Positions 6,954 to 34,087 of a stretch of 62,238 nucleotides of DNA are shown one piece after another (positions within the stretch are counted from its first letter, which is position 1; each line of letters opens with the position of its first letter). The translations under genes were made by a program, and so were the position numbers. The stretch lies in contig VFGE01000038.1 of the NCBI GenBank assembly GCA_009392515.1, positions 1 to 62,238 of the forward strand, in the 5' to 3' direction. Under the pieces are notes generated by a model. That model was not told the origin of the DNA. It made no database searches and was given only the letters and a program-made list of their open reading frames with translations. This DNA comes from SAR202 cluster bacterium (GTDB lineage Bacteria > Chloroflexota > Dehalococcoidia > Lucifugimonadales > UBA6952).

Positions 6954-7916
6954 ATGCGTGGATATATTATAAAAAGATTATTACTTGGTATACCTACAAT
7001 ATTGGGAGCAATGCTACTAATATTTACAATTATGCGGGTAATTCCAGGTGATGTTGCAGTTCTTATTGCTGTGGGTGGTAGTGAAGGTGAAGAAGTTGTT
7101 GCCGAGGAAAAAGTAGAAAAAATACGAGTTCAGTTAGGTTTAGATAGACCTGTTTATGAACAATTTGGTGAATGGGTATGGCAGGTCGCAACATGGGATT
7201 TGGGAGACAGTTTTATTTTACGGCAGCCTGTTACAGAGATGTTGGCGCGCAAATTACCCATGACATTGCAGCTAGGTCTTATGGCCTTATTGCTCTCATG
7301 GATTATCGCTATTCCTATTGGTATTTTAAGTGCAGTTAAGCAAGATACTCCATTGGATTATATCCCGAGATTCATAAGTATTATAGGTTTAGCTATCCCA
7401 AATTTTTGGTTGGGTATTTTAATTTTAACATTTGCCGCAGCTTGGTTTAATTGGTTTCCTCCAATAATTTATCAAACCCCCTGGGACGATCCAGTAGTAA
7501 ATATGACGCAATTATTTTTTCCTTGTTTGGTATTAGGAGCTTCACAGGCTGCTATTCAAGTTAGAATGATGCGAACAACAATGCTAGAGGTACTTCGTGA
7601 AGATTATATCCGAACAGCTAATGCTAAAGGTTTAAAGAAAATTAGTGTTCTTTGGCGTCATGCTATGAAAAATGCCTTAATACCAGTAGTTACAATTTCA
7701 GGCAGTCAATTAGCTAATTTGATTGGTGGAGCATTGGTAACAGAAACGGTATTTAATTTGCCAGGAATTGGTGCTGCAACAGTAGACGCAGTAAGACTAA
7801 GAGATTATCCAGTAATACAAAATTTTGTGTTAATTATTACTACGGGACATGTCGTGGTAAATTTATTCATAGATCTCCTATACGGCTGGCTTAATCCAAG
7901 GATACGTTATTCATAA
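6954..7916 (+). CDS. Peptide/nickel-type ABC transporter permease (DppB-like)
   Basis: 320-residue inner-membrane permease of the DppB/OppB class. It opens with RGYIIKRLLLGIPTILGA, and shows the large extracellular loop and membrane segments of the class. The EAA motif that contacts the ATPase is in the region reading YIRTANAKGLKKISVLWRHA. It is followed 24 nt later by the partner permease. No ATPase or substrate-binding gene is adjacent, so the importer must draw those parts from elsewhere. Substrate class (peptide, nickel, glutathione, sugar) cannot be resolved from the permease. Confidence 0.93.
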   Translation: MRGYIIKRLLLGIPTILGAMLLIFTIMRVIPGDVAVLIAVGGSEGEEVVAEEKVEKIRVQLGLDRPVYEQFGEWVWQVATWDLGDSFILRQPVTEMLARKLPMTLQLGLMALLLSWIIAIPIGILSAVKQDTPLDYIPRFISIIGLAIPNFWLGILILTFAAAWFNWFPPIIYQTPWDDPVVNMTQLFFPCLVLGASQAAIQVRMMRTTMLEVLREDYIRTANAKGLKKISVLWRHAMKNALIPVVTISGSQLANLIGGALVTETVFNLPGIGAATVDAVRLRDYPVIQNFVLIITTGHVVVNLFIDLLYGWLNPRIRYS

Positions 7917-7940
7917 AGTATAAGAATATTAGGTTTATAT

Positions 7941-8918
7941 ATGTCGATAAATGCAAAAACATCAGAACAAGAAATCGGAATCGAGTTTAAGGTTTCAAAA
8001 TTTAAATTGTGGAGACAAGGCTTTATAAGGTTTTGTAAAAATAAGCCTTTTGGGGCAGTTGGTGGATTTATAGTGTTTGCAGTGGTTGTAATTGCAGGCA
8101 TTTCATATATAGAAGAATTGATAAACGATTGGTTTATTGATCCAAGTAAGGGAGAAGAATATTTCAAAATAATTTCACTCCATGATCCTCTCTATATGAA
8201 TATTTTTCAAAAATTTGATGCTCCATCTTGGAAATATTGGTTAGGTACAGATGAGTTTGGAAGAGATTTGCTAAGCATGACAATAGCAGGCTCTCAGATT
8301 TCAGTTTATGTAGGTTTTGTTTCTGTTGTTATCGGTACAGGTATAGGTGCCTTTTGGGGTTTAATTAGTGCATATTTAGGTGGTTGGTTTGATTTAATCA
8401 GCCAACGTTTTGTTGATATAATGCAAAGTATCCCAACTCTAGCTTTTGCTTTGGTTATAATTGCATCTTTTGGTTCTAGTTTAAACAATGTGGTTTTAGC
8501 TATCAGTATTGGTTTAATTGGTGGCTCAGTTAGAGTGGTAAGAGCTCAAGCTTTATCAATTAGAAATACAACATATATTGAATCTGCGTATTCAATAGGC
8601 GCCAGTTGGGCTAGAATAGTATTTAGGCATATAATGCCCAACTGTATAGCCCCTTATTTAATTATTGCTACAGGTTCATTGGCAGCTGCAATATTGTCGG
8701 AAGCATCTTTGAGCTTTTTAGGAGTTGGTGTTCCACCTCCAGATCCTTCTTGGGGGCGAATGTTGGCGGGACAGGGTAGGCATTATTTAACTGTTTATCC
8801 TTGGTTATCATTTGTTCCAGGATTAGTAATGACAGTAGTTGTTCTGGCATTTAATATGTTTGGTGATGCTTTAAGAGATATTTTAGATCCACGACTCAGA
8901 GGATCTGAGAGACGATAA
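7941..8918 (+). CDS. Peptide/nickel-type ABC transporter permease (DppC-like)
   Basis: 325-residue permease of the DppC/OppC class. An N-terminal cytosolic stretch with the FKLWRQGFIRFCKNKP motif precedes the first membrane segment. The class signature LGTDEFGRDLLS follows, then the EAA loop (ESAYSIGASWARIVFRHIMPN) and LSFLGVGVPPPDPSWG. It pairs with the upstream permease to form the channel. The 44-nt gap to the next ORF contains the ribosome-binding site of the glutaredoxin-DinB gene, which may be co-transcribed. Confidence 0.93.
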   Translation: MSINAKTSEQEIGIEFKVSKFKLWRQGFIRFCKNKPFGAVGGFIVFAVVVIAGISYIEELINDWFIDPSKGEEYFKIISLHDPLYMNIFQKFDAPSWKYWLGTDEFGRDLLSMTIAGSQISVYVGFVSVVIGTGIGAFWGLISAYLGGWFDLISQRFVDIMQSIPTLAFALVIIASFGSSLNNVVLAISIGLIGGSVRVVRAQALSIRNTTYIESAYSIGASWARIVFRHIMPNCIAPYLIIATGSLAAAILSEASLSFLGVGVPPPDPSWGRMLAGQGRHYLTVYPWLSFVPGLVMTVVVLAFNMFGDALRDILDPRLRGSERR

Positions 8919-8962
8919 TAGATAATCACTTTTATAGCTAATGTTTGAAAAATGGAGTTGAT

Positions 8963-9742
8963 ATGGAAGTCAAAGTTTTTTTTAGACAGGGTTGATTTAC
9001 TTGCGGTAGGACGAAAGAGTATCTTTCGCAAAACAATATTGATTACATTCCTATGGATGTGGCAAAAGATCCACAAGCTTTAAAAGAATTAGACGATTTG
9101 GGGTTAAAGGTTATACCTGTTACAACTATTACTTTAGCTCCTGGTACTAAATCTTTTGGAGATAAAGTAATAATAGGATTTGATCGCGCTTCTTTATCTG
9201 AAGCTTTAAATTTAGGAGAAGTAAGTATAACTGATTCTGATGCTGAGTGGATGTTAGGCAAATTCATGAAAGTACTATCTGCGGCTAGAAGAGCAACATT
9301 GCAAATTCCAGACGATTCTATTGATTGGGTTTCTCCTGAACGTGATAGAACACTTAGACAATTCACCTTTCACCTTTTTGATAGACCTTATATGATGATT
9401 TCTGCATATGAACAAGGTGAATATAAAGCAGAGGACCGTCAAAGGTATATAACTGATGCTTTAAAGACTCAAGATGTACGATCTATAGTTGAATTTGGGG
9501 AGTCGGTAATTAATAGAATTGAGAAATTTTTCGAAAATATTCAATTAGAAGTCCTTAAAACTCCAGTAAAAACTTACATGGGAACTATGCCTTTAAATCA
9601 GTTAATGGATTTGGGGTTAGGGCACTCTGTACATCACTTGAAACAATTATATTTTTACATGAGCAAACTCGATATCGTACCTGACAACCCACTTACCGAA
9701 GAAGACTTTGATGGAATTTCAGTTCCTTCCGAGTTATTCTAA
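8963..9742 (+). CDS. Predicted selenoprotein: glutaredoxin-like domain (UxxC) fused to DinB-fold domain
   Basis: Read from ATG 8963 (GGAG 6 nt upstream) this frame has one TGA at 8993-8995 and then stays open to 9742, giving 259 residues. The N-terminus reads MEVKVFFRQG-U-FTCGRTKEYL, so the TGA sits at the first position of the CxxC redox motif (U11-F-T-C14). The cis-Pro (Pro52 in VIPVTTI) and the closing KVIIGFDRASL segment are typical of glutaredoxin. Residues about 95-250 look like a DinB four-helix domain, with His137 and GHSVHHLKQL (His221, 224, 225) as metal-ligand candidates. TGA is a normal stop elsewhere (rhomboid at 5965, btuC at 36063), so a general recode is unlikely. A shorter start at 9053 would lack the active site. 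Sec rather than sequencing error is inferred, supported by the hairpin that follows. Confidence 0.72.
8996..9031 (+). promoter_or_regulatory. Candidate bacterial SECIS element
   Basis: Sixteen nucleotides after the in-frame TGA lies a perfect 6-bp hairpin, CGAAAG-AGTAT-CTTTCG (9012-9028), with TTG/CAA (9001-9003/9029-9031) able to extend it across an asymmetric bulge. The apical loop AGUAU has G at its second position, as in the published bacterial SECIS consensus, and begins 22 nt after the TGA, inside the usual window. The element lies within the coding sequence, as bacterial SECIS elements do. Confidence 0.65.
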
Positions 9743-10791: not shown

Positions 10792-11697
10792 ATGTCTGAG
10801 GTGCATGTGACATCCCTATCAAATAGTGTCAAAAATAATGAATATAATTTGTCTCGCTATATTACCCTAGCTGTTGAAGGTGAGATTGATCAGGTAAGCG
10901 AACTTGTTGATTCTTATATTAATGATGGCAAAAGTGTTAAAGACGTTTTGTTGAAGATGTTTATGCCTTCATTAGTTAATATTGGTGATTTATGGAAGAA
11001 AGGGTTGTTAAATATAGCAGAGGAGCATTTAGCTGTAACTGTTACCCTCTCTCAAATTGAGAGATTAACACAATCGCTAGTTCCAAATGGAGAAATTATT
11101 GGAACTGCTGCTATATGCACGCCAGTTGGGGAGAAACATTTTATAGGTCCTAAGGTTGTTTCTGAATTAATGAGACTTTCAGGTTGGAATGTGCACTTTC
11201 TGGGTACAGAAATGCCCCCAGAGGATCTCATACAATTTCTTGGAGAAAAAGAAATTGATTTATTAGTATTATCAATAACTTTGGAAGAAAACCTACCTGC
11301 TGTTTTAGAAATAGTCAAAGCGGTAAAATCAATGGATAAATCTGTAGTAACTATGCTTGGTGGCTCCGGAGTTGATAATATAGATGAAAACTTAATAAGC
11401 GATGTGGATATAATATCATCTGATGTTTCAAGCGCTATAATCGAAGCTTCACGCTTGGTTTCATCAACTACTTTAAACGGTAATTTAGAAGACTATCTTT
11501 CTTTTATTGGTGAGAAAGTCAAAAGAACGAGAATATTAAAGGGCTGGAATCAGCAAAAACTTGCTGACGAATCTGGTCTCGACAGAACTTATATAAGTTC
11601 TGTCGAAAATGGGAAACAAAATCTAACATTAGGTGTGCTTTTGCGAATTGGCAATGCATTTGGTATAGATATACAAACGTTAATAAATCGTGAATAA
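10792..11697 (+). CDS. CarH-like cobalamin-binding regulator with C-terminal XRE helix-turn-helix
   Basis: 301-residue putative B12-sensing transcription regulator. Residues about 18-100 are a helical B12 cap domain containing W68-x9-E78-H79, the arrangement found in CarH photoreceptors. Residues about 101-225 are a Rossmann B12-binding domain with E114-x-H116-x-x-G119, where His116 is the candidate lower cobalt ligand, followed by LVLSITLEENLPAV. Residues about 242-298 form a Cro/C1-type helix-turn-helix (QQKLADESGLDRTYISSVENG). Known CarH/LitR proteins place a MerR-type domain first, so both the position and the fold of the DNA-binding part differ. It is divergent from the SDR gene and 54 nt upstream of an ABC transporter operon. 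Light sensing is inferred; a non-light B12 sensor is the alternative. Confidence 0.85.
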   Translation: MSEVHVTSLSNSVKNNEYNLSRYITLAVEGEIDQVSELVDSYINDGKSVKDVLLKMFMPSLVNIGDLWKKGLLNIAEEHLAVTVTLSQIERLTQSLVPNGEIIGTAAICTPVGEKHFIGPKVVSELMRLSGWNVHFLGTEMPPEDLIQFLGEKEIDLLVLSITLEENLPAVLEIVKAVKSMDKSVVTMLGGSGVDNIDENLISDVDIISSDVSSAIIEASRLVSSTTLNGNLEDYLSFIGEKVKRTRILKGWNQQKLADESGLDRTYISSVENGKQNLTLGVLLRIGNAFGIDIQTLINRE

Positions 11698-33859: not shown

Positions 33860-33881
33860 AACTTGTAGAAAAATTAATATC

Positions 33882-34034
33882 AATATAGGTGCTGTTTCTA
33901 CAGAGAATAGGGAACCTGGTGAAAATCCAGGACGGTAGCGCCGCTGTAAACTGAGAAAAGAAATAAATAGACATTGATGTATATCGAGAAGTCTATTTTG
34001 TAACATTCAGTAAGTCAGAAGACCTGCCTATATT
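33882..34034 (+). ncRNA. Cobalamin (B12) riboswitch aptamer
   Basis: P1 is a perfect 8-bp stem, AATATAGG (33882-33889) with CCTATATT (34027-34034). Inside are the conserved GGGAACCTGGTGAAAATCC core, GACGGTAGCGCCGCTGTAA, a variable stem closed by AATAGAC/GTCTATT, and the B12 box AGACCTGCC (34020-34028). It sits directly upstream of a terminator and a BtuFCD-type operon, so B12 binding is expected to lower importer expression. Confidence 0.96.
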
Positions 34035-34087
34035 AAGTCAGCGACTCTCTTCGCTTAAAGAGGCAGCTTATTTAATTAAAATAAATA

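Follow-up and report, generated by a model that had tools for sequence, protein, structure and literature searches.

The locus examined here raises the question of whether an in-frame TGA at the active site of a glutaredoxin (Grx) fused to a DinB-fold domain is a stop codon or is read as selenocysteine (Sec) and, in the latter case, what such a protein might do. The gene lies in a stretch of 62,238 nucleotides from a SAR202 cluster bacterium, hereafter the window, and its features are collected in Table 1. The host genome consists of 1.55 Mb in 62 contigs and is 98% complete, its nearest named relative being a Dehalococcoidia MAG from station ALOHA. Our analysis suggests that Chloroflexota possess a new selenium-dependent enzyme. 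The protein is almost certainly a true selenoprotein, in which the UGA of codon 11 is decoded as Sec by SelB and tRNA-Sec under the direction of a hairpin just downstream.

Table 1. Coordinates of the features of the Grx-DinB locus in the window.
Feature	Position	Strand	Basis and remarks
Two dipeptide-type ABC transporter permease genes	6954..8918	+	PF00528; directly upstream, 44-nt gap; context only
Shine-Dalgarno-like GGAG	8954..8957	+	Direct reading; 5-nt spacer to ATG; unchanged in a relative (L009)
Grx(UxxC)-DinB gene, very probably of a selenoprotein	8963..9742	+	259 aa; reading frame, homologues, selection
Glutaredoxin (NrdH/YruB-like) domain, residues 1-84	8963..9214	+	PF00462, TIGR02196, TIGR02194, invariant residues
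TGA of codon 11, in frame; decoded as selenocysteine, the U of UxxC	8993..8995	+	TGA shared by the 18 fusions and stand-alone Sec-Grx; stand-alone Cys-Grx has Cys here
Resolving Cys14 of UxxC	9002..9004	+	Invariant in alignment A1
SECIS-like stem-loop	9012..9028	+	7-bp stem 9012-9018/9022-9028, apical loop 9019-9021; pairing, covariation, codon choice
DinB domain	9287..9649	+	PF12867; profile match to PDB 3dka, 6iz2, 2f22, 3gor, 3di5, 2p1a
His137, metal ligand 1 (inferred)	9371..9373	+	Invariant in 17 fusion C-termini
His221 and His225 (HxxxH), metal ligands 2 and 3 (inferred)	9623..9637	+	Invariant in 17 fusion C-termini; align with HxxxH of solved DinB proteins

Reading frame and conservation of the TGA codon

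The original prediction, made from the letters of this DNA, described a single frame with a well-placed ATG and GGAG that continues to position 9742 through one TGA at the first position of the redox pair, and direct reading bears this description out. The frame runs from ATG 8963 to TAA 9740-9742 (259 codons) and its sole break is the TGA at codon 11, in the context MEVKVFFRQG-U-FTC (U11-F-T-C14). A near-relative genome carries the same TGA independently. Pairwise comparison with a 94%-identical relative gave a dN/dS of 0.03, with a dS of about 1, in both domains. Across the first 30 nt of the gene there are no nucleotide differences from this relative, and third-position changes number only one in codons 1-26 (hairpin included) vs. 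92 in the remaining 233 codons (Fisher p 1.3e-4). As far as comparison of sequences can establish it, purifying selection acts on both sides of the TGA.

It could be argued that translation truly stops at the TGA, or that this codon reflects a sequencing error or gene decay, and that the real start is ATG 9053, since standard ORF calling, with TGA taken as a stop, returns as its longest product a 229-aa ORF from that position, without the Grx active site. We regard this as very improbable. A start at 9053 would delete the active site, the hairpin is conserved, the first 30 nt are unchanged and the same TGA is found at 18 loci in 14 genomes. Sequencing error and pseudogene were both rejected on the recurrence of the TGA among the fusions and the dN/dS of 0.03. 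The active site of this protein is missed by standard gene calling.

Selenocysteine machinery of the host

A search of the genome for selA, selB, selC and selD had been suggested as a check on the prediction, and all four components are present. The tRNA-Sec scores 61.2 bits (gathering score 47) and is also called SeC, with anticodon UCA, by ARAGORN, while SelA was found with 434 bits, SelB with 338 bits (above the cut-off) and SelD with 354 bits. The SelD gene (L023, contig C37) carries one in-frame TGA of its own, at 1531, which is followed by a hairpin, and its product is itself read as Sec-containing.

A genome-wide reassignment of TGA to Trp, Gly or Cys, in favor of which one could cite the rarity of TGA as a stop in the window (3 of 47 long stop-to-stop frames), was rejected and can for practical purposes be set aside, as those three frames end normally at TGA with an extension of only 2-32 codons, the genome has a tRNA-Trp with anticodon CCA in addition to a dedicated tRNA-Sec reading UGA, and the hairpin would be left unexplained.

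The SECIS-like hairpin

In the bacterial SECIS model, a stem-loop stands directly 3' of the UGA and has a G in its small apical loop (PMC1088965). The hairpin of the present gene, CGAAAGA-GU(U/A)-UCUUUCG, begins 16 nt past the TGA, has a G in a small apical loop and fits this model. Folding the RNA of the window sequence alone did not settle the matter (z -1.27), and comparative evidence was therefore needed. The seven stem pairs are formed in 93.8% of cells in 31 Sec sequences (30 distinct; alignment A2) vs. 39.7% at the same place in 18 Cys glutaredoxins (alignment A3). Compensatory changes were observed in the outer pair (C-G, U-A, A-U) and in the closing pair (A-U, C-G, G-C), and the covariation score was reached by 0 of 500 shuffles. 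In two homologues (L070 and L071) the change of the closing pair replaces amino acids (E by A, F by L or W) without breaking the stem, indicating that the constraint is at least partly on the RNA.

The same hairpin codons are used across genomes of 33-69% GC. AAA GAG TTT CTT is retained at 60-69% GC, where AAA makes up 5-20% and TTT 5-7% of synonymous use, the exception being TTC for TTT in one relative. Furthermore, a whole-genome pattern for the TGA-hairpin arrangement matched only two genes, namely the Grx-DinB gene and its paralogue.

Distribution of the fusion and of its relatives

Homologues were sought in 393 genomes belonging to the class and in 400 from the phylum (the samples overlap, for about 800 Chloroflexota searches) and in one close-relative scan, which alone covered phyla other than Chloroflexota. 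Complete or nearly complete Grx-DinB fusions were recovered at 18 loci in 14 Chloroflexota genomes, and in 18/18 the frame has one TGA, which stands at the U position; one of the loci (L030) has an apparent frameshift farther downstream. A second copy in the host genome (L055, contig C25, about 14096) is 33% identical and has the same TGA. This paralogue is located near MmgE/PrpD and aconitase genes.

It had also been suggested that homologues be examined for Cys at the TGA position. As with the other proposed checks that were run, the outcome favors the prediction. Cys does occur there in stand-alone glutaredoxins of Chloroflexota, which exist in both Sec and Cys forms, but in 0/18 of the fusion loci, and no Cys-form fusion was found in the roughly 800 overlapping Chloroflexota genome searches. 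In a Grx-domain tree (83 columns) the fusions fall into two groups, and whether the fusion arose once or twice is unresolved.

Other proteins of Chloroflexota, of about 160 aa in all, consist of a short glutaredoxin followed by a PDZ-like region, recognized by eye without a domain search. Their first active-site residue is encoded by TGA in L077, L079, L085 and L092 and is Cys in L075, L081 and L089, and the genes with TGA have a similar hairpin 3' of it. These proteins may represent a second Sec-Grx fusion family.

The two halves of the protein

The Grx half matches PF00462 at residues 3-53 (E 1.9e-6; 28.4 bits vs. a cut-off of 22.9). Its closest NCBIfam models are TIGR02196 (E 7e-13) and TIGR02194 (E 7e-9), neither of them reaching its cut-off. 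Residues G10, U11, C14, K18, E19, L21, S22, P52 and G72 are invariant in a 15-row alignment (A1). Hence, the features expected of a Sec-glutaredoxin, i.e., a score above the Pfam cut-off, UxxC and the cis-Pro (P52), are all found, and the earlier statement that the glutaredoxin pattern is otherwise intact holds.

The assignment of the second half to the DinB superfamily is likewise supported, by profile matches to DinB and by a complete metal-binding His triad. DinB_2 (PF12867) matches residues 109-229 with E 4.4e-4 and 21.1 bits, just under the cut-off of 24.8, while the paralogue of the same genome scores 29.4 bits, above it, and 14 of the 17 fusion C-termini are matched at E<=0.01. The best solved match of the family profile is PDB 3dka (E 3e-6). 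In the 17 C-termini the only invariant residues of the DinB half are H137, H221 and H225, which align with the histidines of most matched solved DinB proteins (DinB/Bst metal triad). In BstA-H of B. subtilis, too, full conservation is limited to the three histidines of the triad, and the activity of that enzyme is metal-dependent and abolished by EDTA (PMC5815605). An AlphaFold model built from a 3-row alignment (pLDDT 38) was unusable for fold or domain contact. Judged by sequence, the gene thus possesses both the signals for UGA recoding and intact catalytic residues in its two halves.

Proposed function and alternatives

We consider the protein most likely to be an enzyme of thiol transfer or detoxification that depends on a metal and has its own selenol redox module, its chemistry being inferred rather than demonstrated. 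H137, H221 and H225 of the DinB domain would, to judge by their invariance, bind a divalent metal, and the metal site would most likely activate a thiol (or selenol) to attack an electrophilic substrate, in the manner of the bacillithiol and mycothiol S-transferases. The mixed disulfide or thiol adduct so formed would then be reduced or resolved by the Sec-Grx module, the U11/C14 pair forming and resolving a selenenylsulfide. Recharging of the module is attributed to thioredoxin reductase, because the Grx half resembles NrdH and not the glutathione-type glutaredoxins; a thioredoxin reductase is present in the host genome (419 bits). Metal binding, thiol transfer, selenenylsulfide chemistry and the recharging step are all inferences, as is the detoxification or repair function put forward in the original prediction. 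The explanation as a whole, selenoprotein and metal/thiol-transfer mechanism together, is in our opinion probable, though by no means secure in the absence of biochemical data.

A possible, though less likely, alternative accepts the selenoprotein and denies that the DinB half is a transferase. The Grx would then be an electron donor or reductant for an isomerase, dehalogenase or hydrolase reaction at the metal, or would serve redox sensing. DinB/STL proteins include maleylpyruvate isomerases and members of unknown activity, and the neighboring genes are of varied catabolic and transport types: PEP_mutase and the ABC permease pair at the window locus, and MmgE/PrpD, CoA-transferase III, glyoxalase_4 and MFS in relatives. 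The permease pair keeps the same order in L056 and L057 and is convergent in L061, and one of the pair is present in L065. However, no partner in the neighborhoods of the fusions is conserved across clades and none names a substrate, so that the context does not point to an alternative one, and invariance in the DinB half is confined to three His that are familiar from thiol transferases.

The low-molecular-weight thiol that would serve the thiol-transfer enzyme remains open, since the host genome yielded no BshC, no EgtD and no glutamate-cysteine ligase of the GCS2 type (proteobacterial-type GshA and mycothiol genes were outside the search). Given that genes for glutathione (GCS2 type), bacillithiol and ergothioneine were not found, it is conceivable, if doubtful, that the protein is an S-transferase carrying its own nucleophile, with Sec in place of the low-molecular-weight thiol at the DinB metal site. 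If true, this would explain why no fusion of this kind was seen with Cys instead of Sec.

Two further elements of the window were recorded. The gene at 10792-11697 (+) encodes a protein in which B12-binding domains precede a C-terminal helix-turn-helix of the XRE type, a domain order which we take to be unlike that of the CarH type, and a cobalamin riboswitch (102 bits) is located at 33870-34045 (+).

Comparison with known systems

Sec-containing glutaredoxins are not new in themselves. Grx and Grx-like selenoprotein families were described in the Sargasso Sea and GOS surveys (PMC1088965; PMC2398784), in agreement with the earlier remark that UxxC glutaredoxins exist, and an experimentally verified bacterial example (PF00462, UxxC) is listed in PMC13188914 (its ref. 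85). The present protein shares with them the Grx domain, the UxxC motif, the SECIS directly 3' of the UGA and the G in a small apical loop. Unlike it, the known ones are listed without a fused domain, and the fusions of the GOS paper include none with DinB. Some of the short Sargasso Sea Sec-Grx sequences could be fragments of a Grx-DinB gene. The NrdH-redoxin/YruB models (TIGR02194, TIGR02196) are the closest NCBIfam models of the Grx half, which differs in lying below their curated cut-offs, in having Sec for Cys and in its fusion to DinB. The UXX-star glutaredoxin-like (seleno)proteins (NF041212, NF041211) are also Sec-Grx-like, but the match, 26.8 of 66 bits, is far under the cut-off, and one member is a HUGP/GUXX-star fusion, not a DinB one.

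With the DinB/S-transferase-like proteins (BstA-H and the mycothiol S-transferases; PF12867) the fusion has in common the invariant H...HxxxH triad and the profile match to solved DinB proteins. Those enzymes use bacillithiol or mycothiol and are without a redox domain, whereas the Grx-DinB protein has a fused selenol redox domain and a host in which BshC was not found.

The original prediction knew of no described selenoprotein with this architecture, and neither the literature searched, from which subscription literature was excluded, nor two catalogues contradict it. In the former we found no published DinB-containing selenoprotein and no selenoprotein reported with SAR202; none of the 119 prokaryotic selenoprotein families tabulated in a 2026 review is listed with DinB; and the NCBIfam models match only the Grx half, below their cut-offs, with no model of the whole architecture. 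On account of this absence, and within the limits of the search, we regard as new the fusion itself, where it occurs and the strict dependence on Sec that it appears to show. With the Grx-DinB protein, found in marine and other Chloroflexota, the catalogue of 119 prokaryotic selenoprotein families appears to gain one more, and selenium is connected with the large and poorly understood DinB superfamily. No Cys version having been found in the genomes sampled, what Sec does here that Cys cannot is a directly testable question. In comparison with known systems, therefore, both parts, a Sec-glutaredoxin and a DinB fold, are familiar, while their combination in an apparently always-Sec fusion is, as far as we have searched, undescribed.
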